A DNA stretch of 64,000 nt, from contig NZ_CP080332.1 in NCBI RefSeq assembly GCF_019456655.1, positions 3,410,001 to 3,474,000 on the forward strand, given 5' to 3'. Below are positions 7,326 through 19,395 of the stretch, one piece after another; within the stretch, counting starts at the first letter, position 1, and every line of letters starts with the position of its first letter. This DNA is from Mycolicibacterium diernhoferi. GTDB lineage: Bacteria > Actinomycetota > Actinomycetes > Mycobacteriales > Mycobacteriaceae. The notes beneath the pieces are model-generated. The model was not told where the DNA came from. It worked only from the letters and a program-made list of their open reading frames with translations, and searched no databases. The translations under genes and the position numbers were made by a program.

Positions 7326-7516
7326 CAGTGCCCTCTCCCTCTGTCGGGGGTGCCTGAGAGATTCAGTCCGCGGGTGGACCTTTCCCCATGGGCGGGTGCG
7401 CAGGGCACCGCTTTCCAGAGGCATCGTGGCCGTGTGCGGTCCGGGGGCCTGAGAGGTTGACGGAGAGGTATTGCTCCTTCGGCGCCCGTGGCTGGCGGCC
7501 ACGGAACTCTCCCGCG
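7326..7516 (-). ncRNA. Tandem glycine riboswitch in the gcvP leader
   Basis: Read on the minus strand, the leader contains two glycine-aptamer signatures in order. The first has GGGAGAG, GCCGAAGGAGCAA, CCTCTCAGGC and the linker CTCTGGAAAGC. The second has GGGGAAAGGTCC, ATCTCTCAGGCACC and GACAGAGGGAGAGG. This is the classic two-aptamer gcvT-type element. It ends about 40 nt before the gcvP GTG. The family usually turns expression on when glycine is bound. No strong U-tract terminator is seen in the short gap to the start, so control of translation initiation is more likely here. Confidence 0.92.
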
Positions 7517-7538
7517 CAAGGGCGATGCGTCGTTGATT

Positions 7539-8666
7539 CTACCGCCCGGCCAGATCCAGCGCCGTCCACGCCAGCGCAGTCGCCCCGTCACGCAGCGCGG
7601 CCTCGGCCTGCGGGCCCACCGCGGCGTCGGCGAATTCCCGCTGATGGTTCACCGCAGGCAGCGACCCGATGCCCAGATACGGGTGGATCGCCCGCACCAC
7701 CTGGGACACATTGCCCATGTCGGTCGACGCGGTGCGCATCGCCGCCGCGCCCTCGGCCGGCTCGGCCAGCATGTCCCGCCCCAGCTCCGCGGCGTTGGCG
7801 ATGAACAGGTCCAGCAGGTCCTCGTCGGTGCGGAATTCCGCGTACGGCGGGGACTCCAGCTCGATCTCCAGCTCGCATCCCGTCCCCAGGGCCCCGGCGG
7901 CGAAACAGTCGCGGATGCGGCGTTCGATGCCGGCGAGCTCGGCCAGGGTGCGGGCCCGCACATACCAGCGGCCGGTGGCCGAGTCCGGGATCGCGTTCGG
8001 TGCCGTCCCGGCGTCGGTCACCACCCCGTGTACCCGGGTGGTCGACGGCAGCTGCTGGCGCAGCAGCCCGATCGCCACCTGGGCGACGGTGAACGCGTCG
8101 GCGGCGTTCACACCCAGGTGCGGGTAGGCCCCGGCGTGCGCGCTGACGCCGCGGTAGGAGACCCGCCAATGCGCGACCGCCAGCGGTTCGGCGCGCGGGG
8201 CGTCGACAGGGCCGGGGTGCATCATCAGGGCCGCGTCCAGGCCGTCGAACTCGCCGGCCTCCAGCATGCCGATCTTGCCGCCGCCGCCCTCCTCGGCCGG
8301 GGTGCCGATGACGTGCACGGTGATACCGGTGTCGCCGGCGGCGCGCACCATCAGCGCCGCGCCGACCGCGGACGCGGCGATCAGGTTGTGCCCGCAGGCG
8401 TGCCCGAGGCCCGGTAGCGCGTCGTACTCGGCGATGAAGGCGATGTGCAGCGGCCCGTCGCCGGCGCGGGCGTGGAACGCGGTCTCCAGTCCGGCGGCCC
8501 GGCGGTCGACGCTGAACCCCTGCCCGTCGAGCAGGTCGGTCAGCATCCGGTGAGCCCGCACCTCCTGCCAGGCGATCTCGGGATCGGCGTGCAACCGGGT
8601 GCTGATGCCGCGCACCAGCTCCCAGTTGCGCGTCAGGTACCCCTGGGCGAGGGCTTTAGAGGTCAC
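7539..8666 (-). CDS. M20-family amidohydrolase (AbgB/PM20D2-like)
   Basis: A 375-residue metal-dependent amidohydrolase. Family signatures are [15 protein letters not shown] (about 80-94, metal-binding His89 and His93) and [10 protein letters not shown] (121-130, catalytic and metal Glu pair), followed by the dimerisation domain with [10 protein letters not shown]. These enzymes cleave amide bonds of N-acyl amino acids, p-aminobenzoyl-glutamate or small peptides. The GTG at 8666 overlaps the upstream DUF1028 gene by 11 nt. It is the last gene of the catabolic operon; gcvP's riboswitch begins beyond it. A role in releasing an amino or carboxylate product is inferred from context. Confidence 0.88.
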
Positions 8667-9330
8667 CCGGGACCCCGAAGCTCGGTGCGCCGGCGGGGTC
8701 GAGGGCACGACGGACGTAGTCGTCGCGCTGGGGTTCCCAGACCTCCCACAGTGCGGCCAGCTGTGTGTACGGGTCCTCGGACCAGTCCACCCGCAGAGTG
8801 GTCTCGGGCCACTCGACCTCGCGGTAGACCAGCAGCCCGGCGGCGTGGATCGGGCCCTCTTCGCCGCCGGCGTCCAGTGCGGCGGCCAGTCCGTCCAGCA
8901 GCCGCCGTTCGAACTGGGTGGCCGCGGAGGTCTCGTAACCCCGGACCAGTTCGGTGATGGTGGCCGCCGAGGCCAGCATGTTGCCGGCCCCGACGACGCC
9001 GTCACCGGCGAGGTGGTGGTGGGTGCCCAGGGCCCCGGCGCCACTGAACGCGGCGCTGCGACCCGCCCGGTCCAGCACGGTCAGCTGCCGGTAGTCGCGC
9101 ATCGGGTGCGCCTCGACGACGGTGTCCAGGGCGGTCCGGGCGTCCGCGCCGGCGGCGAGCTGATCCAGCAGCAGGGGGCCCAGCCGGGGGTCGGTGACGT
9201 TCTGGCTGGCGGCCGCCCCGAGTCCGGGCCGGATGTTCAGGCAGCGCGAGGCCACCGCGGGCGAGGACGAGGCGATGACCATGCCGAAGGCGCCGGTGTC
9301 GCGGTCCAGCGCGGCGAGCGAGAACGTCAT
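8656..9330 (-). CDS. DUF1028 family protein
   Basis: 224 residues beginning MTFSLAALD, with the family's N-terminal pattern of a short strand, then FGMVIASSSPAVASRC, then the region around AAASQNVTDPRLG, GAGNML and the C-terminal WEPQRDDYVRRALDP. The fold is related to Ntn hydrolases; the biochemical function is unknown as far as I know. The gene overlaps RidA upstream by 4 nt and the amidohydrolase downstream by 11 nt, so it is almost certainly translated with them. The context suggests a hydrolytic step or a partner of the amidohydrolase, which is an inference. Confidence 0.85.
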   Translation of the reverse strand: MTFSLAALDRDTGAFGMVIASSSPAVASRCLNIRPGLGAAASQNVTDPRLGPLLLDQLAAGADARTALDTVVEAHPMRDYRQLTVLDRAGRSAAFSGAGALGTHHHLAGDGVVGAGNMLASAATITELVRGYETSAATQFERRLLDGLAAALDAGGEEGPIHAAGLLVYREVEWPETTLRVDWSEDPYTQLAALWEVWEPQRDDYVRRALDPAGAPSFGVPGDL

Positions 9331-9743
9331 GACGCCCCCTGCCGCACCGCGATGACGTCCACCTCGACCAGCCACTCGGGCCGGGCCAGGGCGCTGACCA
9401 CCAGCCCGGTGGACACCGGGTGCACGCCCTTGAGCCACCGCCCGATCACCCGGTACACGGCCTCGCGGTAGCGCGGATCCACAAGGTAGACGGTCACTTT
9501 GACGATGTCATCCAGGGTGGCGTCGGCCTCGGCGAGCAGGGTGGCGATATTGGACATCGCCTGCTCGGTCTGGGCGGCCACATCGCCGACGCCGATGTTC
9601 TCGGCGGTGTCGAGGTCCTGGCCGATCTGGCCGCGCAGGTAGATGGTGTCCCCGGCCACCACGGCCTGGCACAGATCGTTGTCGAGGTTCTGCTCCGGGT
9701 AGGTGTCGCGGGTGTTGAACGGGCGGATTCTGGTGTGTGTCAC
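9327..9743 (-). CDS. RidA (YjgF/YER057c) family imine/enamine deaminase
   Basis: 138 residues with the RidA core: an N-terminal strand then YLRGQIGQDL, EQAMSNIATLLAEADATLDDIVKVTVYLVD, and near the C-terminus RPEWLVEVDVIAV. Classical RidA has an Arg near the C-terminus contacting the substrate carboxylate; here that region reads ALARPEWLVEVD, with the Arg present. RidA proteins hydrolyse reactive enamines and imines, and some are dedicated catabolic deaminases such as 2-aminomuconate deaminase or RutC. The GTG at 9743 overlaps the monooxygenase stop by 4 nt. Its place in the operon implies an aminated or imine intermediate. Confidence 0.88.
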   Translation of the reverse strand: MTHTRIRPFNTRDTYPEQNLDNDLCQAVVAGDTIYLRGQIGQDLDTAENIGVGDVAAQTEQAMSNIATLLAEADATLDDIVKVTVYLVDPRYREAVYRVIGRWLKGVHPVSTGLVVSALARPEWLVEVDVIAVRQGAS

Positions 9744-11188
9744 TGGCCCACCCGGTCGGACAGTTCGGCCGCGGACTTGACCAGCGCCAGCGGGCCGTCG
9801 AAGTCGAAGTTGCGGTAGACGGCCTGGTAGTGCGCGAACGGCGGTGCCTGGGCGAACAATTGGAAGGTCAGCCGGTGCCCGGCGTAGTCGCTGTTGAGCA
9901 GGTCGCGGGCGAACGCCAGCAGTTTGCGACGGTCGTCGGCCTGCCACTCGTCGGTGATGGAGTAGTACTTCTCCAGCCATTCCGAGGCGCCCGGGACGCC
10001 GAAGGTGGCCGAGTCCGGGGTGATGCAGATCTGGCCGCCGCACAGTTCGCGGGCGTAGTGCATCATCTGCGGCAGCTGGGTCTGGGCCCACACCCGGCCG
10101 GCGTACAGCAGCGACTGGTTGGGCATCAGCAGCCCGCCCGGGCTGGTCTCGGCGTTGGCGATCGAGGCGGTCAGGTGGGCATCGATGCCCTCCCGGTAGC
10201 AGGCCAGCATCGCCAGCTTCTCCTGCACGGCCGGGTTGTTGTCCAGCCCGGTCTGGCGCACGTTGTGCAGGGCCGCACCGATCATCAGGTCGGCGAACCG
10301 GATCGACCGGTGCACGTAGGGCAGCGCGCTGTAGCGGTGCAGGCAGCTGCGCACGAAGGTGGCGGCCCGGGTGTGCCGGTAGAACAGGATGTCGTCCCAC
10401 GGGATCAGCACGTTGTCGAAGATCACCAGCGACTCGACCTCGTCCACCCGGTTGGACAGCGGGTAGTCCGCGGCATCGCGGCGGCCGGCGAAACCGGTGC
10501 GGCAGATGAACTTCAGGTTCGGCGCGTTCAGATCGGCGATGAACCCCACCGCGTAATCGGAGAGCTTGGAGTCGCCCCAGTTGGCGATGGTCGGCTTGGT
10601 GTAGGCCTGGGTGGCGTACGGCGCGGCGGTCTCGTACTTGGCGCCGCGCACGATGATGCCGTCGTCGGTCTCCTTGACCACGTGCAGCAGCATGTCGGGG
10701 TCCTGGTCCTGCGGGCGCTTGGACCGGTCGCCCTTGGGGTCGGTGTTGGCCGAGATGTGGAACGGGTCACCGGTGGCGGCCTTGTTCACGTGCCGGCGGA
10801 TGTTCTCGGCGAACCGCGGGTCGACCTCGTTGAGCACGTCCTGCCCGTCGTAGAGGGCCCACATCTCACCGATGGTCTCGTCCCCGACCCGGGTGACCAC
10901 GCCGCGGGCCTCGTCGAGGACCAGGTCGATGGCCTTGCGCTTGTCCTGCCAATCCTGTTGGGTCAGCGGCATCTTGTTGGCGATCGCGTTGCGCTCACCG
11001 TTCTCGTCGACGTAGCTCATCACGTCCTGGGTGGCGGCCTCGTGCGCCAGGTCGTAGATGCGGGCCCGGATGTCGACGATGGGCGCGAACATCGGGTGCT
11101 TGGTGACGTCGCGCACCTGTTCACCGTCGATGTAGATCTCGCGTCCGGTGTTGATGGACTCCCGGTATTCGTCTCCGGTCTTGATCAT
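9740..11188 (-). CDS. FADH2-dependent aromatic monooxygenase, HpaB-like large component
   Basis: 482 residues of the 4-hydroxyphenylacetate 3-hydroxylase (HpaB) family, group D flavin monooxygenases with an acyl-CoA-dehydrogenase-like fold. Recognisable blocks are the N-terminal KTGDEYRESI, the central GDPFHISANTDPKGDRSKRP and RGAKYETAAPYAT, VESLVIFDNVLIPWDDILFYR and the C-terminal CGGQICITPDSATF. It uses reduced flavin supplied by the HpaC-like reductase encoded just upstream (4-nt ATGA overlap). Homoprotocatechuate ring-cleavage genes are absent, so the substrate is probably not 4-hydroxyphenylacetate. Hydroxylation of an aromatic or heteroaromatic acid is inferred. Confidence 0.9.
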   Translation of the reverse strand: MIKTGDEYRESINTGREIYIDGEQVRDVTKHPMFAPIVDIRARIYDLAHEAATQDVMSYVDENGERNAIANKMPLTQQDWQDKRKAIDLVLDEARGVVTRVGDETIGEMWALYDGQDVLNEVDPRFAENIRRHVNKAATGDPFHISANTDPKGDRSKRPQDQDPDMLLHVVKETDDGIIVRGAKYETAAPYATQAYTKPTIANWGDSKLSDYAVGFIADLNAPNLKFICRTGFAGRRDAADYPLSNRVDEVESLVIFDNVLIPWDDILFYRHTRAATFVRSCLHRYSALPYVHRSIRFADLMIGAALHNVRQTGLDNNPAVQEKLAMLACYREGIDAHLTASIANAETSPGGLLMPNQSLLYAGRVWAQTQLPQMMHYARELCGGQICITPDSATFGVPGASEWLEKYYSITDEWQADDRRKLLAFARDLLNSDYAGHRLTFQLFAQAPPFAHYQAVYRNFDFDGPLALVKSAAELSDRVGQ

Positions 11189-11712
11189 GCGAGCTGTCCT
11201 TCCGTGTTGTGGGCCGAGAGCGTGCGGTACGTGCCGCGCAGATGCAGCAGGGGTTCGGCGTCGGTGTGCACCACATGGCGCACCTCGCCGAGGTAGAGGT
11301 GGTGGGATCCGATATCGGTGACGCTGTGCAGCACGCACTCGAAGGCGGCCACGCTGTCGGCGTAGACCGGCAGACCGTTGCGGCCGTCGGCCCATTCGCC
11401 CTCGGCGAAGGTGAAAGGCGCCCGGCCGTCACGCGAGCGTCCGGCGAACGTGTCTGCGGCGACGTGATGTTCGGGCCCCAGCAGGGACACATTGAACGCG
11501 CCGGTGGCGCAGATCGCGGCGTTCATGGGGCTGCGCCGGTTGATACAGACGCCCAGGATGGCAGGTTCGTCGGAAACCCGGCTCACCGCGGAGACGGTCT
11601 GTCCCCAGCGCAGGTTGTCGGCGTCGGTGGTGACGATGGTGACGGGTGTCGCGGCACAGCTGATGGCGCGGATGAACTCGCGCGTGCCGGTCGGCGTCAG
11701 GGTGGATTTCAT
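11185..11712 (-). CDS. Flavin reductase, HpaC-like small component
   Basis: About 175 residues from the ATG at 11712, chosen because AAGGG lies 6 nt upstream; a longer frame to 11808 has no good start signal. The fold is the FMN-binding split barrel of flavin reductases: TREFIRAISCAATPVTIVTTD, then WGQTVSAVSRVSDEPAILGVCINRRS, FNVSLLG and a C-terminal HHLYLGEVRHVVHTD. It would reduce FAD or FMN with NAD(P)H and hand it to the HpaB-like oxygenase, whose start it overlaps by 4 nt. About 100 nt separate it from the quinone-reductase gene upstream. Confidence 0.9.
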   Translation of the reverse strand: MKSTLTPTGTREFIRAISCAATPVTIVTTDADNLRWGQTVSAVSRVSDEPAILGVCINRRSPMNAAICATGAFNVSLLGPEHHVAADTFAGRSRDGRAPFTFAEGEWADGRNGLPVYADSVAAFECVLHSVTDIGSHHLYLGEVRHVVHTDAEPLLHLRGTYRTLSAHNTEGQLA

Positions 11713-11812
11713 TGTCATCCCTTGCGTTTCGGATTCGGGATCGGTTCCACGGATGGCAGCGTTGATGTCCGTGGCTTCGATGCTGCCCGAATCGGGGTCA
11801 TCTGACAAAGAG

Positions 11813-12829
11813 CTAGATCCGTTGTTCTACATCGGTTTTGGAGATGCATCCGGGCACGGTGACGACGACCTTGCCGACCCGGTCCGGTTCGGTGAACCTG
11901 CGGTGCGCGTCGGCGATGCGCTCGAGGCCGAAGGTGGTGTCCAGCACCGGGCGCAGCCGGCCGGCCACCAGCGCGGGCAGGACCTCGGCGGCCAGCTCCG
12001 CGCACAACGCGGCCCGCGTCTCATCCGGCAACCGGCCCAGGCTCGACGAGGACACCTCGGCACCGGCGGCCATCAACGAACCCAGGTCGATCTGCGCCTG
12101 ACTGCCGCCGGCCACCCCGACGATCACCAGCCGCCCCTGCGGAGCGAGCAGGCCGATGTTGGCATCCAGGGTGGAGGCGCCCTGATTGTCCAGGATGATG
12201 TCGTAGCCGCCGGGTTCGCACCGGCGGGCCGCCTCGAACACATCCGTTCCGGCGTAGTCGATCACCCGGTGGGCGCCCAGCTCGGTGCACAATGCGGTCT
12301 TCGCCGCGCCGCGGGCAGTGCCGGTGACCAGCGCGCCGCGGGTCCGGGCCAGCTGGACGGCCAGCGAGCCCACTCCCCCGGCGGCACCGTGGATCAGTAC
12401 CCGTTCCCCGGACCGAAGTCGGCCGCGGTGCACCAGGTTCCACCAGGCCGTCGCCGCTGCCTCCGGCACGGCACCGGCGATCACCGGGTCGAGCCCGTCG
12501 GGCAGCACCAGGCACGCCCCGGCCGGTACGGCCACGTATTCGGCGTAGGTGCCCGCCCGGGTCAGAGCGGCCACCCGGTCGCCGACCTTCGGTGCGCTGA
12601 CCGCGCTGCCGACGGCCACCACGGTGCCTGCGCATTCCAGGCCGGGGATGCCACCGGGGGGTGCCGGCATGACGCCGCGGCACTGCAGGATCTCGGCGTT
12701 GTTGATCCCGAAGGCCGCCACCGCGATCAGAACCTCCGTCGGGCCCGGCTCCGGGACCGCCACCCGTTGGATGCGCAGGGGCTGCGCACCGCCCGGATCA
12801 ACCAGCACGGCCGCCGGCATCGTGGTCAT
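11813..12829 (-). CDS. Zinc-free MDR oxidoreductase (quinone reductase / enoyl reductase-like)
   Basis: 338 residues of the medium-chain dehydrogenase/reductase superfamily. The N-terminal GroES-like domain has GINNAEILQCRG and PGLECAGTVVAVG. The Rossmann motif is HGAAGGVGSLAVQLA (about 145-159). The zinc-binding Cys/His set of alcohol dehydrogenases is absent, which fits the QOR subgroup. It would use NADPH to reduce a quinone or a conjugated double bond. The ATG at 12829 overlaps the upstream hydrolase stop by 4 nt. In this operon it could reduce an unsaturated ring-opening product or a quinone formed after hydroxylation; that is inference. Confidence 0.88.
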   Translation of the reverse strand: MTTMPAAVLVDPGGAQPLRIQRVAVPEPGPTEVLIAVAAFGINNAEILQCRGVMPAPPGGIPGLECAGTVVAVGSAVSAPKVGDRVAALTRAGTYAEYVAVPAGACLVLPDGLDPVIAGAVPEAAATAWWNLVHRGRLRSGERVLIHGAAGGVGSLAVQLARTRGALVTGTARGAAKTALCTELGAHRVIDYAGTDVFEAARRCEPGGYDIILDNQGASTLDANIGLLAPQGRLVIVGVAGGSQAQIDLGSLMAAGAEVSSSSLGRLPDETRAALCAELAAEVLPALVAGRLRPVLDTTFGLERIADAHRRFTEPDRVGKVVVTVPGCISKTDVEQRI

Positions 12830-13635
12830 CGCAGCACCACCTGCGCGTGGAAATCGAGGATGGCCCGGGCGAATTCGGCCGGACAGGTCTCGGGGCTGGA
12901 GATGTCGCCGTCGCCCAGGACGTGCTCGCGGGCCTGCGGGAAGGCCGCCATGATCTGGCCGTGGCGCGGGAAGGCCCGCTTGTCGCGTGCCGAAGCCATG
13001 CACAGCACCGGTCCCGGGTAGCGGCCGAGACGATCCTCGGAGCGGTAGGCGGACACCGCCGCCGTACCGCGGTCGGGGTCCGAGTGAGACAGCACATCGC
13101 GGATGTAGCGGGCCTGCACATCGGGGGCCGATTGCGTCAGGTACTCGGCACGACGGCGCCACAGTGCGGCGAGGTGGTCGCCGTCGGCACGGGCGGGGAT
13201 GGCGTTGAACGGTGCTGCGCCGCGGCGACGCTCGCGTTCCTCGGCGTCGATGAAGGGAGTCGACGACAGCACCAGGGACAGCACCCGATCCGGCGCCTCG
13301 GCGGCCATCTGATAGGCGACCAGACCGCCGAAGTGGTGGCCCACCAGGTGGGCGCACGGCACACGCAGCGTGTCCAGCAGGTCCAGCACGGCCGTGGCCG
13401 TCGCCTCGATGGTGTTCTCGGCCGGTGCTTCCGAGGCACCGTATCCGGGCAGGTCGGGTATCACGATACGGTACCCGTCGATCAGACCGGCAACGTCCCG
13501 GAACTCATCCCAGCTGCGCGGGGTCTGGTGCAGCAGCACCAGGCACGGGCCGTCGATGTCGGCACCCGAGGTGACGACATGCATTCTCCCCGAACGGGTC
13601 TGGACGTACATGGGTTCCGGCGCTGCGCCGCTCAC
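12826..13635 (-). CDS. Alpha/beta hydrolase with His at the nucleophile position
   Basis: 269 residues with a clear alpha/beta-hydrolase fold: oxyanion loop LVLLHQTPRSW (32-42), strand and turn PDLPGYGASEAP, and nucleophile elbow VGHHFGG, where residue 101 is His in place of the usual Ser, Asp or Cys. The codon is unambiguous in the sequence. RutD- and NicD-type hydrolases sit in N-heterocycle operons together with RidA and flavin reductase genes, much as here. First gene of the second island operon; a 136-bp gap with a candidate operator lies upstream. Whether it is a true hydrolase or uses a neighbouring residue is open. Confidence 0.85.
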   Translation of the reverse strand: MSGAAPEPMYVQTRSGRMHVVTSGADIDGPCLVLLHQTPRSWDEFRDVAGLIDGYRIVIPDLPGYGASEAPAENTIEATATAVLDLLDTLRVPCAHLVGHHFGGLVAYQMAAEAPDRVLSLVLSSTPFIDAEERERRRGAAPFNAIPARADGDHLAALWRRRAEYLTQSAPDVQARYIRDVLSHSDPDRGTAAVSAYRSEDRLGRYPGPVLCMASARDKRAFPRHGQIMAAFPQAREHVLGDGDISSPETCPAEFARAILDFHAQVVLR

Positions 13636-13689
13636 GTGGCCTCCAAGTCAGTGGACGATGACTCCATCCAAAACCGCGTCGAGCATCTT

Positions 13690-13735
13690 GGCAAACAGTG
13701 AATAGCGTTGCACCGCATCGGATCCGCAGATGCAA
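13690..13735. promoter_or_regulatory. Candidate LysR control region upstream of the hydrolase-to-amidohydrolase operon
   Basis: GGCAAACAG at 13690-13698 matches 8 of 9 bases of the GTCAAACAG motif found twice upstream of the TRAP operon. A nearby pair, TTGCA (13708) and TGCAA (13731), forms inverted 5-bp arms. The region lies between the lysR stop and the hydrolase start, the only real gap in the island, so a promoter is expected here. No clear -10 box was identified. Confidence 0.35.
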
Positions 13736-13771
13736 TGGATCACCGTAGACGATCGCGCGACAGGGTCCGGC

Positions 13772-14695
13772 TCAGCAGTCGCCGGCCACCACAGCCCGGC
13801 AGCGCTCGGCGAAAGCGATGGCGCGCCTGCTCATTCGGATCGACTGCAGGGAGGCCACCACCACGCGCAGTGGGCGCACCTCGTCGGTGATCGGTACCGC
13901 TACCACCCGGCCGCCGGCGTAGGTGCTGTCGGTGGCCGGGAGCTGGTGCAGCAGGCTGTACCCGTGGTCCTGGGCTACCATGGCGCGCACCGTCTCATAG
14001 CTGCTGGACCGGTACTGCACGTTCGGCGTCAGACCGCGCTCGCTGAACACGCCGATGAAATAGTCACGGCTGAACGGGAGATCGACCAGGATCATCGGTT
14101 CGTCCACCAGGTCGGCCAACCGGATGCCGGTCTCCCCGGCCAGCCGGTGCGAGGCGGGAAGCGCTGCGTAGGGCTTGATCTCGGCCAGCACGTCCCGGTC
14201 GATGTGATCCCCGAGGGCCAGGTCGTAGGTCAGGGCCACCTCGGCCCGTCCCGACTCCAGGTATTCGCCGACTTCACCGGCCACCGCCTCGGTGACGTGC
14301 ACCTCCAGGCCGGGGTGGTCGCGCTTGAGCCCGGCCAGGATGGACGGTAGGTAGAACGGTGCCAACGGGCTGAAGCACACCACCTGCAGCGGTCCCCAGA
14401 ACGCCTGTGTCTCACCGGCTATCGACTCCAGCGATTCGGCCAGCGCGGTGAGGGTCTGGCGGGACCGCAGCAGCAGTTCCTTACCCGCCGCGGTGAGGAT
14501 CAGTCCCTTGGCGTGCCGGCGGATGAAAAGCTGGACACCGAGTTCCTTCTCCAGGTGCGCGACGGCCGAGGACACCGCCGACTGCGCGACGAACAGGTCC
14601 TCGGCCGCCCGGGTCATGCTCTCCCGCTCCGCGACCCGGATGAAGTAGCGCAGCTGGGTCAGCGAGATCCCGCGCAACTGGTCGACACCGGTCAC
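13772..14695 (-). CDS. LysR-family transcriptional regulator
   Basis: 307 residues. The N-terminal winged HTH (LTQLRYFIRVAERESMTRAAEDLFVAQSAVSSAVAHLEKELGVQLFIR, described by its first and last parts: LTQLRYFIRV at about 12 and LGVQLFIR at about 53) is followed by the periplasmic-binding-like effector domain. The GTG at 14695 overlaps the dctM stop by 4 nt; the much longer open frame upstream is an artefact lying over dctM and dctQ. Being inside the TRAP operon, it probably senses a pathway metabolite and activates both island operons through T-N11-A type sites. Confidence 0.92.
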   Translation of the reverse strand: MTGVDQLRGISLTQLRYFIRVAERESMTRAAEDLFVAQSAVSSAVAHLEKELGVQLFIRRHAKGLILTAAGKELLLRSRQTLTALAESLESIAGETQAFWGPLQVVCFSPLAPFYLPSILAGLKRDHPGLEVHVTEAVAGEVGEYLESGRAEVALTYDLALGDHIDRDVLAEIKPYAALPASHRLAGETGIRLADLVDEPMILVDLPFSRDYFIGVFSERGLTPNVQYRSSSYETVRAMVAQDHGYSLLHQLPATDSTYAGGRVVAVPITDEVRPLRVVVASLQSIRMSRRAIAFAERCRAVVAGDC

Positions 14696-15972
14696 GGGCC
14701 ACCCATGACCGAGGGCAGCCAGGTCGCCAGTGCCGGGAACAGGATCACCAGCACCAACACCGCGATCGTGGCCAACAGGAACGGGGTGTTGGCACGCAGC
14801 ACACCCCACGCGTCGACCTTGGCGATCTTGGCCGCCACCACCAGTGACATCGCCACCGGTGGGGTGACCTGGCCGATGATGACGGTCAGCACGATGATGA
14901 CACCGAAGTGCAGTGGGTCGATTCCGACGGCCAGCATGGTCGGCAGCATCACCGGCATGATCACCGGAATGAGCGGGTCGAACAGCATGCCGGCCAGGAT
15001 CGCCGTGAGCGCCAGCACCACCACGTAGCCGATCTGCACATCGCCCGGCACGATCATGGTGGCGAAGTCGGTGAGCGCCTTGGGCAGTCCGGCCATCGCG
15101 AGCACCGCGCCCAGGGCGACCGAGACGCCCACGATCAGCATCACCTCGCCGGTGAGCACCGCGGCCTCGACCAGGCAGCGGTAGAGGCGGCGGAATCCCA
15201 GGGACCGCATCACCACCATGGAGATGACGACGGCGTAGACGACGGCGAAGGCACCGGATTCGGTCGGGGTGAAGATACCGAGCACGAGGCCGCAGATCAC
15301 CAGGACGGGAACACCGAATGCCAGGATCGAGCCGCGCAGCGTCCGCCAGGCCTCGCGGCCGCTGAACTCGATCTTCTCCCCCCAGCCGTTGCGCTTGGCC
15401 TGGACGGCGACCACCACCATCAGCACCGCGGTGAGGATCAGGCCGGGAATGATGCCGGCCAGGAACAGCGCACCCAACGAGGTGCCGGTGGCCGCGGCGT
15501 ACAGGATCATCGGTGAGGACGGCGGGATCAACGGCCCGATGCCCGATGACGAAGCGGTGAGCGCGGCGGCGTAGGGCCCGGGATAGCCGTGCTTGCGCAT
15601 CTGCGGGATGATCGTCGACCCGGTGCCGGCCAGATCGGCCACCGAGGTGCCCACCATACCGCCGAAGAACAGGCTGGTGGACACGTTGACCTGGGCCAGG
15701 CCGCCCGGCAGCGGACCGAAAACCGCTCTGGCGAAGGCGAAGACGCGCTCGGCGATACCACCGGCGTTCATCACCACACCGGCCAGGATGAACAGCGGCA
15801 TGGCCAGCAGCACGAAGCTGCTCATCCCGTCGGTCACCTGCTGCGGGTACTGCAGCATCCAGGAGCCGCCCATCGTCGCGTACAGCGCGACACCGCCGGC
15901 CATCGCGATGATCAGCGGGGTGCCGAGCAGCAGCAGGCCGACGATGACGGCCAGTGTGATCGCCAGCGTCAC
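14692..15972 (-). CDS. TRAP transporter large permease, DctM-like
   Basis: 426 residues, hydrophobic throughout with about 12 predicted spans. Family features include LLLLGTPLIIAMAGG near the N-terminus, the GGLAQVNVSTSLFFGGMVGTSVADLAG stretch (around residue 90, conserved in DctM), GIGPLIPPSSPMILYA and GVDPLHFGVIIV-like IDPLHFGVIIVLTVIIGQVTPP near the C-terminus. It is the sodium- or proton-coupled transport subunit that works with DctQ and the DctP binding lipoprotein. The GTG at 15972 overlaps dctQ by 4 nt. TRAP systems import organic acids such as dicarboxylates, sialic acid or aromatic acids. Confidence 0.93.
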   Translation of the reverse strand: MTLAITLAVIVGLLLLGTPLIIAMAGGVALYATMGGSWMLQYPQQVTDGMSSFVLLAMPLFILAGVVMNAGGIAERVFAFARAVFGPLPGGLAQVNVSTSLFFGGMVGTSVADLAGTGSTIIPQMRKHGYPGPYAAALTASSSGIGPLIPPSSPMILYAAATGTSLGALFLAGIIPGLILTAVLMVVVAVQAKRNGWGEKIEFSGREAWRTLRGSILAFGVPVLVICGLVLGIFTPTESGAFAVVYAVVISMVVMRSLGFRRLYRCLVEAAVLTGEVMLIVGVSVALGAVLAMAGLPKALTDFATMIVPGDVQIGYVVVLALTAILAGMLFDPLIPVIMPVMLPTMLAVGIDPLHFGVIIVLTVIIGQVTPPVAMSLVVAAKIAKVDAWGVLRANTPFLLATIAVLVLVILFPALATWLPSVMGGP

Positions 15973-16544
15973 GGCTGTTCCTCCTCGATCTGACGCAGGA
16001 TCGCCGCCCGGCAACCCGGCAACTGGAACAGCACGATGAGCGCCGCGGCCAGCGCACCGACCGGTAACGCCGCGGTGAAGAACCCGGACGGCAGCCGCAG
16101 GTACGGGACGGGGTCGTCACCGAACGTGGTGACGTACAGGTAGGCGAACCAGGCCAGGTGCAGCAGCACCGCCGCGGTGAGCAGATCGGTGAACAGCCGC
16201 AGCCACACCTGTGCCCGCACCGACAACCGGCCGACGAAGGCCCGGATGGCGATCGACTCGCGGCGGCGCACACCGAGCGTGAAGCCCAGCATGGTCAGCC
16301 ACAGCATCAGCCCGGTGACCAGTTCCTCGGTCCACCCCAGCGGGGAGTTGAATCCGGCCCGCAGCACCGCGTTGGCGAACAGGATCAGGGTGATCGCCGC
16401 CAGCGTCGTCGCCGCGAGCAACTCCAGGACCCGGTCGATCAGCTTGTGGGTGCCGGGATCCGGATCCACCCCGGTGGTGGAATCCAGCACCATGGCGACG
16501 TCACCGGGCTCGGCGACCGGCGGATGCGCCCCGACCGCCGTCAT
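15969..16544 (-). CDS. TRAP transporter small permease, DctQ-like
   Basis: 191 residues with four predicted membrane spans after a soluble N-terminal tail of about 35 residues. GWTEELVTGLMLWLTMLG around residue 75 and the RRRESIAIRAF loop after it are typical of DctQ subunits. It forms the membrane complex with DctM, whose gene it overlaps by 4 nt. The ATG at 16544 also overlaps the stop of the upstream racemase-superfamily gene by 4 nt, so the enzyme gene is translationally tied to the transporter. Confidence 0.9.
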   Translation of the reverse strand: MTAVGAHPPVAEPGDVAMVLDSTTGVDPDPGTHKLIDRVLELLAATTLAAITLILFANAVLRAGFNSPLGWTEELVTGLMLWLTMLGFTLGVRRRESIAIRAFVGRLSVRAQVWLRLFTDLLTAAVLLHLAWFAYLYVTTFGDDPVPYLRLPSGFFTAALPVGALAAALIVLFQLPGCRAAILRQIEEEQP

Positions 16545-17341
16545 GCGCCGGCTCCGGTCGCGGCGGGGTCGAGCCGGTCGTCGAACAGCCTGCCGAAACC
16601 GGGACGCGCCGCGCGCACCCCGGCGATCTGGAGGGCGTACCAGAACGAGGCCTGCACCGCGCTGATCACCGGCTTGCCCAACTCGGCCTCCAGCGCCGCG
16701 ATGGCGCCGACACTGGCGAAGTTGGTGCAGCTGATGAATACCGCGCTCGCCTCGTCGGTGTCGGTCTCGACCGCGAGATCGTAGACCCGTTCCAGCGGGA
16801 CTTCGGCGAGCTCCTTGTCACTGGTGATCCCCAGCCCGACGCTGGCCACCACCGGGTGCCCGTTCTCGCCGAAAAACCTTGTTGCGCGGTCGATCACCTC
16901 TTGCTTGTAGGGGGTGACCAGGCTGATCGGTCCGGCGCCGACGGCCTTGAGGGCGGCGATGCTGGCGGTCGAGGTGGTGGTGCACCGGCCGGTGAGCCCG
17001 CTCCATTCCTCGAAGTGGCCGACCAGCATCCGGTCCCAGGCCGTACCGTGCAGGAACGATGCACTGGTCCCGCCGAAGACCAGCACGTCCAGCGGGGCCT
17101 GGGCGACCAGTTCGACAGCGGTGCGCAGTTCCGGTGAACGCATCATCGCGTCGATGCCGTCCACGGTGACGCTCGGCAGCGTCACCCTGCTGGTGTGCAC
17201 GGTGGCCGACGGGGTGGCCATGGCGTACATCTCGGCCTCCATCAGCGTGCTGGAGGCCATGTAGACCAGGCCGATCCGGGTGGCGGTGTTGAGCGCACCG
17301 AGCGGCAGGTGTGGCCGGGACAGCCGGGAGGTGGCGTTCAC
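16541..17341 (-). CDS. Arylmalonate decarboxylase / maleate isomerase family enzyme (Asp/Glu racemase superfamily), single catalytic Cys
   Basis: 266 residues from the GTG at 17341, which overlaps the dctP stop by 4 nt. The C-terminal catalytic Cys is present (FISCTNF, Cys205), but the position of the first Cys of racemases and maleate isomerases is glycine (FGGTSASFLHG, Gly91). That Gly/Cys arrangement and the following GTSxSF resemble bacterial arylmalonate decarboxylase, as does the C-terminal ARPGFGRLFDD (recalled). CTN after the Cys is more like maleate isomerases. Embedded between transporter subunits, it probably acts early on the imported acid by decarboxylation or isomerisation. Confidence 0.82.
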   Translation of the reverse strand: MNATSRLSRPHLPLGALNTATRIGLVYMASSTLMEAEMYAMATPSATVHTSRVTLPSVTVDGIDAMMRSPELRTAVELVAQAPLDVLVFGGTSASFLHGTAWDRMLVGHFEEWSGLTGRCTTTSTASIAALKAVGAGPISLVTPYKQEVIDRATRFFGENGHPVVASVGLGITSDKELAEVPLERVYDLAVETDTDEASAVFISCTNFASVGAIAALEAELGKPVISAVQASFWYALQIAGVRAARPGFGRLFDDRLDPAATGAGA

Positions 17342-18339
17342 TGGCGGTACTCGGCGATCACGCGGTCGGCGAAGTCACCGGGGATGCCCGCGGCGATCTC
17401 GTCGCGCACCCCGCTGACCGCCTCGCTGAGCTGGTTGACGTCGGCCTCGTTGACCTGCACCCCGGCCGCCTCGAACTTCGACAGCAGCTCTTCGTCGGCC
17501 TCGGCACCGGCGGCGCGGCTGGTGGCCGCGGCGGCCGCGGCGGCCTTCTCCAGTCCCTGCTGGACCTCGGGCGAGAGCCCCTGCCAGGTGTCCTCGTTCA
17601 TGGCCAGGTAGACGGGGCTGTAGATGTGCGAGGTCAGCGACAGATAGGGCTGCTTCTCGTAGAAGGAGAATGCGTCGATGACCTTCAGCGGGTTCTCCTG
17701 GCCGTCCAGCACTCCCTGGTCCAGCGCCAGGTAGGCCTCACCGATGTCGATCTGGGTCGGTGCGGCACCGAGCGCCTCGAACAGCGCGACGCGAGCCGGG
17801 TTGCCCGGCACCCGGATCTTCAGGCCCGTCAGATCCGACGAGGTGACGATGGGGCGCTTGCTGTTGGTGATCTGCCGGAATCCGTTCTCGCCGAAGCCCA
17901 GAACACGAGCGCCGATCGTTTCCACCAGCGATTCGCTCAATTCATCCCCGTAGGGCCCGTCCAGGAACTCCGCGACCGTCTCACGGTCGGTGAACAGGAA
18001 CGGCATGTCCATGATGGTGAAGGTGGGGTCCAGATTGGCCACCGAACCGCTGACCGCGGCGACGTCGATGGCGCCGGCCCGCAGCCCTTGCAGCACCGCC
18101 TCCTCGTCGCCGATCGCCCCGCCGGTCTGCACGGTGATGTCGACCGAGTCACCCAGTTCGTTCTCGACCTCCTCTGCGAAGGCAAGCAGCATGTCCGCCA
18201 ACGGATCTCCGGCGCTGGTTTCCACTGCGAACATGAGACTCGTTGCGCCGTCCTTGTTTTTGCTCGAATCGGAGCAGCCGGACAGCACCAGCGCGGCGGC
18301 CACGCCACACATCGTGATCGCCCTTGTCAGTGACTTCAT
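17338..18339 (-). CDS. TRAP transporter substrate-binding lipoprotein, DctP-like
   Basis: 333 residues from the ATG at 18339, preceded by GAGAGG at a 6-nt distance. A signal peptide ends in the lipobox LVLSGC (Cys22). The DctP family core is clear: GLKIRVPGNPARVALFEALGA (Arg of this block normally pairs with the substrate carboxylate), IDIGEAYLALDQGVLDGQENP and a C-terminal helical tail. It is anchored outside the membrane and delivers an organic acid to DctQM. First gene of the TRAP operon; two copies of GTCAAACAG lie 100-150 nt upstream. DctP-type TRAP systems are uncommon in mycobacteria as far as I know. Confidence 0.93.
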   Translation of the reverse strand: MKSLTRAITMCGVAAALVLSGCSDSSKNKDGATSLMFAVETSAGDPLADMLLAFAEEVENELGDSVDITVQTGGAIGDEEAVLQGLRAGAIDVAAVSGSVANLDPTFTIMDMPFLFTDRETVAEFLDGPYGDELSESLVETIGARVLGFGENGFRQITNSKRPIVTSSDLTGLKIRVPGNPARVALFEALGAAPTQIDIGEAYLALDQGVLDGQENPLKVIDAFSFYEKQPYLSLTSHIYSPVYLAMNEDTWQGLSPEVQQGLEKAAAAAAATSRAAGAEADEELLSKFEAAGVQVNEADVNQLSEAVSGVRDEIAAGIPGDFADRVIAEYRQ

Positions 18340-18727
18340 CGTTTTCCTCTCATGGCCCAACGATTTTCGGGTGGAACTGGAATCCGCCGCCGGCGCCGAT
18401 GCCAACGCGATGGAGTCAAGGTTCCGAGACCGACTGGACCGCGTCAAACAGTCAAAAGCGAGCGCCTGCATCTGTCAAACAGATGCTCTGTAACACGAAT
18501 TTAACTGCGGCAGAGGACACTTGGATGTGACACGGACGTAACGCGAATACGGTTCACTACTCTGTTGCGATCATCGGCCAGAGTCCGGATGCTCGGTAAA
18601 GGCGATGGTCACCGACCGCTGCATGCCGGATGGTGCGGGGCCGATCGCCCGACATCGGCGGCGTGTGATCAACATCATCAACACGGCGGGACCGGGACTG
18701 TGTCCAACGCCATGTTGTTTGCAAACG
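18340..18727. promoter_or_regulatory. 388-nt non-coding region: promoter side of the TRAP operon
   Basis: No convincing gene lies here. It is less GC-rich than its surroundings, notably around 18480-18560. It contains the tandem operator candidate at 18443-18486 and, at 18717-18726, the 10-bp palindrome GTTTGCAAAC next to the mcdR terminator. It separates the island from the conserved block and marks one island boundary. No att-like repeat, tRNA remnant or transposase fragment was seen. Confidence 0.5.
18443..18486. promoter_or_regulatory. Tandem candidate operator for the TRAP operon
   Basis: GTCAAACAG occurs at 18443-18451 and again at 18474-18482, exactly 31 bp (about three helical turns) apart. 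The second copy sits inside a perfect 19-bp palindrome, GCATCTGT-CAA-ACAGATGC (18468-18486). The palindrome contains T-N11-A, the LysR consensus shape; it also fits the GT-N3-AC core of FadR-type GntR sites, but only a LysR gene is present in the island. It lies about 105-147 nt before dctP. Confidence 0.6.
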
Positions 18728-18750
18728 AAAAAAGCCGCCCGTAGGCGGCC
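18728..18750 (-). terminator. Rho-independent terminator after mcdR
   Basis: On the minus strand the hairpin GCCGCC-TACG-GGCGGC is followed by six T. It begins 25 nt after the mcdR stop. It is the clearest intrinsic terminator in the window and insulates the island from the conserved block. Confidence 0.9.
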
Positions 18751-18774
18751 TCTCTCAGGTCTGGCGGTGCGAAC

Positions 18775-19395
18775 TCAGCCGATCTTGCGGTCGCGGGTCT
18801 TGCGCCGCGAGGCCAGCTCGTCCTCCGGCGCGGCGATCGACTCGCCGCCGTCCGCGCGCTCCCCCGGGAAGTCGGCGATCGCGCCGGTCAGTTCCCGCAT
18901 GGCACCCGACACCGCGATGCCGAAGACGCCCTGGCCGCCCTGCAGCAGGTCGACGACCTCTTCGGCGGAGGTGCATTCGTAGACGGTGGTGCCGTCGGAG
19001 AACAGGGTGATGTTCGCGAGGTCCTGGACGCCGCGCTGGCGCAGGTGATCGACCGCGACACGGATGTTGTGCAGCGAGATACCGGTGTCCAGCAGCCGCT
19101 TCACGATCTTGAGGACCAGGATGTCCTTGAAGGAGTACAGCCGCTGGCTGCCGGATCCGGCGGCGCCGCGGATCGACGGGACCACCAGCGAGGTGCGCGC
19201 CCAGTAATCCAGCTGGCGGTAGGTGATGCCGGCGATCTGGCAGGCGCTGGGCCCGCGGTACCCGACGAGTTCGTCCGGCACCGAATCATCGGGGAAGAGC
19301 CCGCCCTGCACGGGCTCGCTGGGAGCGCTGCTCACCGGCGGTCTGGTGCCGCTGGAAGACAAGTCCAACTCCCCCTGATGTGGCGTGTCGCCCAC
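18775..19395 (-). CDS. mcdR: MerR-family cell-division regulator (Rv1830-like)
   Basis: 206 residues from the GTG at 19395 with AGAGGA upstream. An acidic, Ser/Pro-rich N-terminal tail of about 45 residues precedes the MerR HTH (YRGPSACQIAGITYRQLDYWART), the wing, and a C-terminal helical part. By sequence and order it matches Rv1830, described as McdR, a regulator linked to mycobacterial cell division. The second MerR protein of this block, FtsR-like, is two genes upstream. A strong terminator follows. Its own leader is 195 nt, so it may have its own promoter. Confidence 0.88.
   Translation of the reverse strand: MGDTPHQGELDLSSSGTRPPVSSAPSEPVQGGLFPDDSVPDELVGYRGPSACQIAGITYRQLDYWARTSLVVPSIRGAAGSGSQRLYSFKDILVLKIVKRLLDTGISLHNIRVAVDHLRQRGVQDLANITLFSDGTTVYECTSAEEVVDLLQGGQGVFGIAVSGAMRELTGAIADFPGERADGGESIAAPEDELASRRKTRDRKIG

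Follow-up and report, generated by a model that had tools for sequence, protein, structure and literature searches.

A candidate imidazole-acid catabolic island of Mycolicibacterium diernhoferi with an HpaB-type oxygenase in the HinF position

A cluster of 12 genes on the minus strand (7539–18339) was analyzed in a 64,000-nt stretch of the genome of the soil mycobacterium Mycolicibacterium diernhoferi (contig NZ_CP080332.1), referred to below as the window. With moderate confidence, the cluster is interpreted as an operon through which a carboxylic acid of the imidazole type would be imported and degraded to aspartate, with an HpaB-type oxygenase used instead of the monooxygenase HinF. The analysis establishes the gene content, the island status of the cluster, the exchange of HpaB with HinF in similar modules and the predicted fold of the DUF1028 protein; the substrate and the activities are deduced. 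A nitrogen-containing aromatic or unsaturated acid had been guessed as the substrate class in a first-pass annotation of the same DNA, and an imidazole acid fits that guess.

Gene content and correspondence to the hin pathway

The hin pathway, the original paper on which is reportedly that of de la Torre (2018), is a closer comparison for this gene set than the Rut and nicotinate pathways. Imidazole-4-acetate is converted to aspartate by the Pseudomonas enzymes HinFLHG (P. putida U and P. aeruginosa), with HinF acting as an FAD-monooxygenase (EC 1.14.13.5), HinL as an enamine deaminase, HinH as an amidase and HinG as another amidase (EC 3.5.1.8), while HinI is an aspartate ammonia-lyase (PMC6467879, PMC8231116). 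A hin-like set has also been proposed for Brevibacterium.

As judged from the protein families, the core of the window, HpaB-RidA-DUF1028-M20, matches HinF-HinL-HinH-HinG slot by slot, HinF being replaced by a two-component HpaB-type oxygenase. All 12 families were named by profile searches (Pfam, NCBIfam) and were the same as those read initially from the translations. The genes and the region containing them are as follows.

17338..18339, minus strand: DctP, TRAP solute-binding protein (PF03480, TIGR00787); start taken at 18339, the open reading frame extends to 18471
16541..17341, minus strand: arylmalonate decarboxylase (AMDase)-like protein, Asp/Glu racemase superfamily (PF17645)
15969..16544, minus strand: DctQ, TRAP small permease (PF04290)
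14692..15972, minus strand: DctM, TRAP large permease (PF06808)
13772..14695, minus strand: LysR-type regulator (PF03466, PF00126)
12826..13635, minus strand: alpha/beta hydrolase (PF00561)
11813..12829, minus strand: MDR/PIG3-type quinone oxidoreductase (TIGR02824, above cut-off)
11185..11718, minus strand: flavin reductase, presumed supplier of reduced flavin to HpaB (PF01613)
9740..11188, minus strand: HpaB-type oxygenase, predicted monooxygenase of imidazole-4-acetate (or a close azole acid) in the HinF slot (PF11794+PF03241)
9327..9743, minus strand: RidA enamine/imine deaminase, putative HinL equivalent (PF01042)
8656..9330, minus strand: DUF1028 protein, predicted N-terminal-nucleophile (Ntn) hydrolase, putative HinH equivalent (PF06267)
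7539..8666, minus strand: M20 amidohydrolase, HinG equivalent by position (PF01546, TIGR01891)
7503..18774, minus strand: region of the island, bounded by the MerR gene and gcvP, at a site empty in 27 of 29 other same-genus genomes examined; outer edges approximate

The window shares with hinFLHG (PA5393–PA5390 in P. aeruginosa) the order flavin monooxygenase, RidA-type deaminase, amidase, amidase, as well as a LysR regulator (HinK in hin). It differs in having HpaB and flavin reductase in the slot of the FAD monooxygenase (the HinF-like match of the genome, at 35%, lies elsewhere) and in having an M20 protein of another subfamily than the ArgE type, although the same M20 type occurs in a HinF-type operon of the genus (L213). 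Genes for a histamine permease, an aminotransferase and an aldehyde dehydrogenase are not among the 12, whereas the TRAP carrier, the AMDase-like protein, the MDR protein and the hydrolase are added. The window RidA was 59–77% identical to RidA proteins of HinF-type clusters, with the highest value for L213, and the window DUF1028 protein was 41–57% identical to its counterparts in such clusters.

As far as searched, the initial view that no described pathway has exactly this gene set is right for all 12 genes together; it does not hold for the core, since RidA, DUF1028 and M20 beside a flavin monooxygenase is the hin-type layout. These comparisons make the core a version of a known pathway in which a non-orthologous oxygenase is used, and the TRAP, AMDase-like, MDR and hydrolase periphery is left unexplained by hin. 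An open-access literature search revealed no HpaB-type imidazoleacetate module in titles and the beginnings of abstracts, which does not show that none is published.

The overlaps between neighboring genes, described before as near-universal and 4–11 nt long, were found at 9 of 11 junctions (eight of 4 nt and one of 11 nt). The two gaps were located between the flavin reductase and MDR genes (94 nt) and between the alpha/beta hydrolase and LysR genes (136 nt), so the genes fall into three tight blocks: DctP-AMDase-DctQ-DctM-LysR, hydrolase-MDR and flavin reductase-HpaB-RidA-DUF1028-M20. The two transcripts proposed initially for the 12 genes are plausible. A scan for sigma-70-type promoters gave no sites, a result that says little for this organism.

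Island status and distribution in the genus

The genome that contains the window is a single contig of 6.0 Mb, in which the island is flanked by a MerR gene (18775–19395) and gcvP. The MerR gene was present in 40 of 41 genomes, and 30 loci, one of them the window's own, were compared with LysR matches omitted from the gene listing. For 27 of the 29 other same-genus genomes the MerR-gcvP site was empty, with the two genes 239–629 bp apart and, LysR aside, no gene of the island intervening; no gcvP was present inside the 1.5-kb flank in the remaining two. In Mycolicibacterium aurum, M. vaccae, M. sp. P9-22, M. bacteremicum and the same-genus genome G056 the gap was filled by about 11.5 kb with island genes, and the search for the same gene order, advised in the first-pass annotation, revealed all 12 genes in identical order in these five. 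Because genes, order and insertion site are identical, the arrangement is not a matter of chance.

HpaB (E <= 1e-60) was detected in 5 of 148 same-genus genomes, including that of the window, two matches being 93–100% and three 59–60% identical. The gene set of Nocardia carnea was not beside MerR/gcvP within the stretch examined, and this set breaks off after HpaB. In a direct-repeat search across the island, the 20 families listed, of at least 60, were all imperfect and no integration mark was seen, integrases not having been searched for.

Exchange of HpaB with HinF in similar modules

In the order of Halotalea (G148), taken as Pseudomonadales, 22 genomes with a DUF1028 match of at least 42% provided 19 DUF1028 regions. 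Fifteen of these encoded an FMO-type oxygenase (one cluster; family assigned by Pfam on L131 and L148), mostly together with RidA and an ArgE-type M20 protein. HpaB was present in three of the other four and L128 was not assigned. In L134, L137 and L140 the module had an amino-acid permease as well as an aldehyde dehydrogenase as neighbors, joined in L134 and L137 by a class-III aminotransferase. Since these neighbors match hinDAC, the FMO-type protein is read as HinF and the DUF1028 protein as HinH, an identification made by gene content and not from deposited hin sequences. ArgE-like matches of 24–25% in L013 and L022 were not counted as HinG. The idea that P. putida HinF is itself an HpaB homologue was rejected, as clade HpaB was found in only 3 of 390 genomes of the Halotalea order and the DUF1028 loci lay mostly beside the FMO-type oxygenase.

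Within the genus, the order HinF-RidA-DUF1028-M20-AspA in G053 (L213) stands against HpaB-RidA-DUF1028-M20-AspA in G128 (L220). Among 396 genomes of the phylum, two encoded a HinF-type protein (59–60%), five encoded clade HpaB and none encoded both. A plasmid cluster of Shinella sumterensis (L148), of which we know no characterization, has the order LysR-DctP-AMDase-DctQ-DctM-HinF-DHQase II-MDR-GST-RidA-DUF1028-ArgE. It has LysR-DctP-AMDase-DctQ-DctM, MDR, RidA, DUF1028 and an M20-fold hydrolase in common with the window, but it encodes a HinF-type oxygenase where the window has HpaBC, DHQase II and GST where the window has the alpha/beta hydrolase, and an ArgE-type protein in place of the window M20. 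In G225 and in Halomonas sp. PA16-9, its near relative by sequence match, DctP-AMDase-DctQ-DctM lies beside ArgE-DUF1028-RidA, with HpaBC at a distance of about 8 kb.

A quick tree of RidA and DUF1028 was constructed from 71 rows (54 with HpaB, 15 with HinF and 2 with both) after the window had been added and 15 near-identical rows of 85 removed; L015 did not enter it owing to the RidA length filter. With the two rows carrying both oxygenases excluded, the HinF label required a minimum of four changes, of which at least three were forced by well-supported branches. L213 (HinF) was placed inside a set of 12 actinobacterial rows with a support of 99, L144 and L146 (HpaB) inside a set otherwise composed of HinF rows, also with a support of 99, and L148 (HinF) among HpaB rows. 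The interleaving of the rows and the occurrence of similar modules with either oxygenase indicate that the oxygenase was exchanged more than once, with the other genes staying.

The HpaB clade and its neighbors

In plasmid records, the HpaB identities extended down to 54.8% and then fell to 37% and 30% (among the 40 matches listed of 271), and in the 396 phylum genomes HpaB was found at 57–100% in the five genomes with the next best match at 30% or lower. The window HpaB therefore belongs to a tight clade apart from the paralogues. The loci of this clade were represented by the best 80 of 191, some of which ended at contig ends, and genes were counted over the 80 by tblastn. RidA was present in 67 loci, DUF1028 in 66, flavin reductase in 55, the window-type M20 in 22 and the ArgE-type M20 in 23, and the two M20 types never occurred together. 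A control consisted of 25 of 42 paralogue rows with a flank of 1.5 kb on each side. In these loci neither RidA nor DUF1028 was detected and flavin reductase was found three times (same strand, no more than 1.5 kb away), while the same test applied to the clade gave 68, 50 and 55 of 80 loci for RidA, DUF1028 and flavin reductase, respectively. Some LysR homologue, a member of a common family, was present in 64 of the 80.

The transporters beside the clade modules varied and included TRAP, polyamine-type ABC, branched-chain-type ABC and NCS1 systems. AspA was found in 8 of the 80 loci and a class-III aminotransferase accompanied by aldehyde dehydrogenase in 5, as would be expected if histamine or another source were converted to imidazole-4-acetate upstream and aspartate left as fumarate downstream. 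A third kind of amidohydrolase, of the histone-deacetylase family, was located near HpaB in four loci; in two stretches (L048:3600–4682 and L056:12707–13750) it directly followed DUF1028, where the M20 or ArgE-type gene sits in other loci. Rieske oxygenases were encoded in 21 loci, and in the Roseovarius variants L067, L072, L078 and L081 RidA was flanked by them on both sides, between HpaB and DUF1028.

The window HpaB matched the Pfam families HpaB_N and HpaB but missed the NCBIfam HpaB equivalog cut-off (224.4 vs 480.2 bits). Of the Arg, Tyr and His residues which we take to form the phenol site of the Thermus enzyme, Arg100 was kept, whereas Tyr104 and His142 were replaced by Glu and Ser, respectively, two residues conserved without exception in the 91 clade members. 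The protein thus shares with the HpaBC 4-hydroxyphenylacetate 3-monooxygenase its families, hence presumably the fold and the two-component chemistry, and differs from it in its separate clade, altered pocket residues and neighbors. A protein-database search (5307 matches) gave only automatic names among the 120 matches listed. An HpaB structure model was also obtained (pLDDT 84), on which no claim rests.

DUF1028 as a predicted ring-opening enzyme and the proposed pathway

The model of the DUF1028 protein (pLDDT 94.8) showed an Ntn fold with Thr2 at the position of Thr1 of the proteasome and HslV. This residue was conserved in every sequence of two sets (44 of 44 and 91 of 91), and the protein is predicted to be a threonine Ntn hydrolase. 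The related DUF1028 protein SPO2555 (PDB 2imh) is 29% identical and its structure title gives no function; the open-access literature search revealed no paper on DUF1028. The genome carries another DUF1028 gene, a distant one (L211:6933–9157; G000:C1, about 735–737 kb), whose product has 32% identity and a C-terminal extension; with genes for an ArgE/DapE-type protein and for an alpha/beta hydrolase beside it, its context is different.

In the proposed pathway, the TRAP carrier would import the acid, and HpaB with flavin reductase would hydroxylate imidazole-4-acetate, or a similar compound, on its imidazole ring and so give an imidazolone, which is HinF's step in Pseudomonas. The DUF1028 threonine hydrolase would open the ring to N-formimino-aspartate, RidA would convert this imine to N-formyl-aspartate and the M20 amidohydrolase would release aspartate and formate. 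That DUF1028 acts before RidA is a guess. The earlier statement that signature ring-opening enzymes are absent from the cluster is probably wrong, as the DUF1028 hydrolase and RidA are the likely enzymes of imidazolone opening and deimination.

Observations against the imidazole-acid pathway and alternative substrates

Several observations weigh against the conversion of imidazole-4-acetate by HpaB in the place of HinF. Both oxygenases were encoded in 3 of the 80 clade loci (L015, L068 and L075), and in two of these HinF directly followed HpaB, ahead of RidA and DUF1028 (L068:10001–12799 and L075:2548–5292), so the substrates of the two may differ. Two HpaB-clade genes were present in L028, L040 and L054. 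Neither RidA nor DUF1028 was found in 8 of the 80 stretches (L011, L028, L033, L065, L069, L073, L076 and L082), though for L028 they lie further out, 11–12 kb from the first HpaB (L146). Nocardia carnea (L011:9700–15000) keeps TRAP-AMDase-LysR-hydrolase-MDR-HpaB, with flavin reductase, RidA, DUF1028 and M20 not next to HpaB. HpaB was also found without RidA or DUF1028 within 18 kb in G783 (L219), and HinF without either near a contig end in G745 (L214). The genes hinA, hinC and hinD are not among the 12 of the window. AspA is also missing from them and the only AspA-like match of the genome scores higher as a fumarase, so aspartate may leave by transamination. Aldehyde dehydrogenase alone is not telling, with six matches of any identity in the paralogue control loci. 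HinF and HinH bear their labels by gene content, and the tree is a quick one with L148, L217 and L220 on long branches, which makes their placement unsure. Because the loci with both oxygenases, with two HpaB genes, without RidA and DUF1028 or with Rieske oxygenases leave room for a related azole, the confidence in the imidazole-acid reading was set a little lower, at the moderate level given above.

Such an azole, for example an N-methylated or otherwise substituted imidazole acid, is a tentative but serious candidate. HpaB would then be no true stand-in for HinF, and RidA, DUF1028 and M20 would act on analogous intermediates. The coexistence of HpaB and HinF, the Rieske oxygenases, which are possible demethylases, and the TRAP and AMDase genes present in the window instead of hinA, hinC and hinD favor it, whereas the AspA and aminotransferase–aldehyde dehydrogenase neighbors resemble hin clusters and HpaB interchanges with HinF in like modules. 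Degradation of pyrrole-2-carboxylate, with HpaBC as its monooxygenase, is improbable: the corresponding enzyme of Rhodococcus is reportedly a two-component flavin enzyme (Becker 1997), but the route is said to lead to 2-oxoglutarate and leaves AspA, the aminotransferase and the replacement of HinF unexplained. Slightly less credible still is a pyridine-acid substrate such as homarine (N-methylpicolinate), by analogy with the homarine operon; the Roseovarius variants with Rieske genes might fit a methylated acid of marine origin, but the product from homarine is reportedly N-methylglutamate and not aspartate, and no Rieske gene was found at the threshold used in 59 of the 80 loci or among the 12 window genes. 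Hydroxylation of 4-hydroxyphenylacetate or another phenol, as the automatic annotation implies from the HpaB and flavin reductase families, is the least credible of all in view of the missed equivalog cut-off, the replaced pocket residues and the lack of a ring-cleavage dioxygenase gene among the 12.

If the imidazole-acid reading is true, a clade annotated as 4-hydroxyphenylacetate hydroxylases gains a testable function and DUF1028 a proposed role and catalytic residue. Two unrelated flavin oxygenases would alternate in one pathway, and imidazole-acid catabolism would extend to Mycolicibacterium, Rhodococcus, Arthrobacter and Streptomyces.

The TRAP, AMDase-like, MDR and hydrolase periphery

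The periphery was conserved in part (TRAP, AMDase and MDR) in three lineages. DctP was 44–45% identical in Shinella L148, Halomonas L147 and G225 L144, beside the same module, and the AMDase-like orthologues of these loci (54–57%) were each located between DctP and DctQ. Relatives of the MDR protein were present in modules L148, L147, L144, L146, L135 and L005. For the alpha/beta hydrolase, PcaD- and HsaD-like profile scores were far under the cut-off.

The AMDase family is known from biocatalysis. When compared with AMDase structures, the AMDase-like protein had Cys at one catalytic position only and a GTS motif without Cys at the other, both of which we take to be AMDase catalytic positions. 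This motif, the Cys and the location of the gene within a transporter operon, as for eutA, are shared with arylmalonate decarboxylase and EutA, but the protein falls under both curated cut-offs (111.5 vs 225 bits for the arylmalonate decarboxylase equivalog). Together with the MDR protein and the alpha/beta hydrolase, the AMDase-like protein probably makes the ring acid from the imported compound. A more specific proposal, rather unlikely as a whole, is that TRAP-AMDase-MDR-hydrolase forms a peripheral route not described before. A (di)carboxylate bearing an imidazole would be imported, then decarboxylated and trimmed to imidazole-4-acetate, the AMDase-like enzyme finding its physiological substrate in this route, followed by the HpaBC-type monooxygenase and ring opening by the DUF1028 Ntn hydrolase on the way to aspartate. 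The AMDase-like protein would gain a defined metabolic context if the imidazole-acid reading holds. In L144, L146, L147, L005 and L135, genes for MDR, GST, DHQase II and 2-hydroxyacid dehydrogenase, together with an ABC carrier, recurred with the module.

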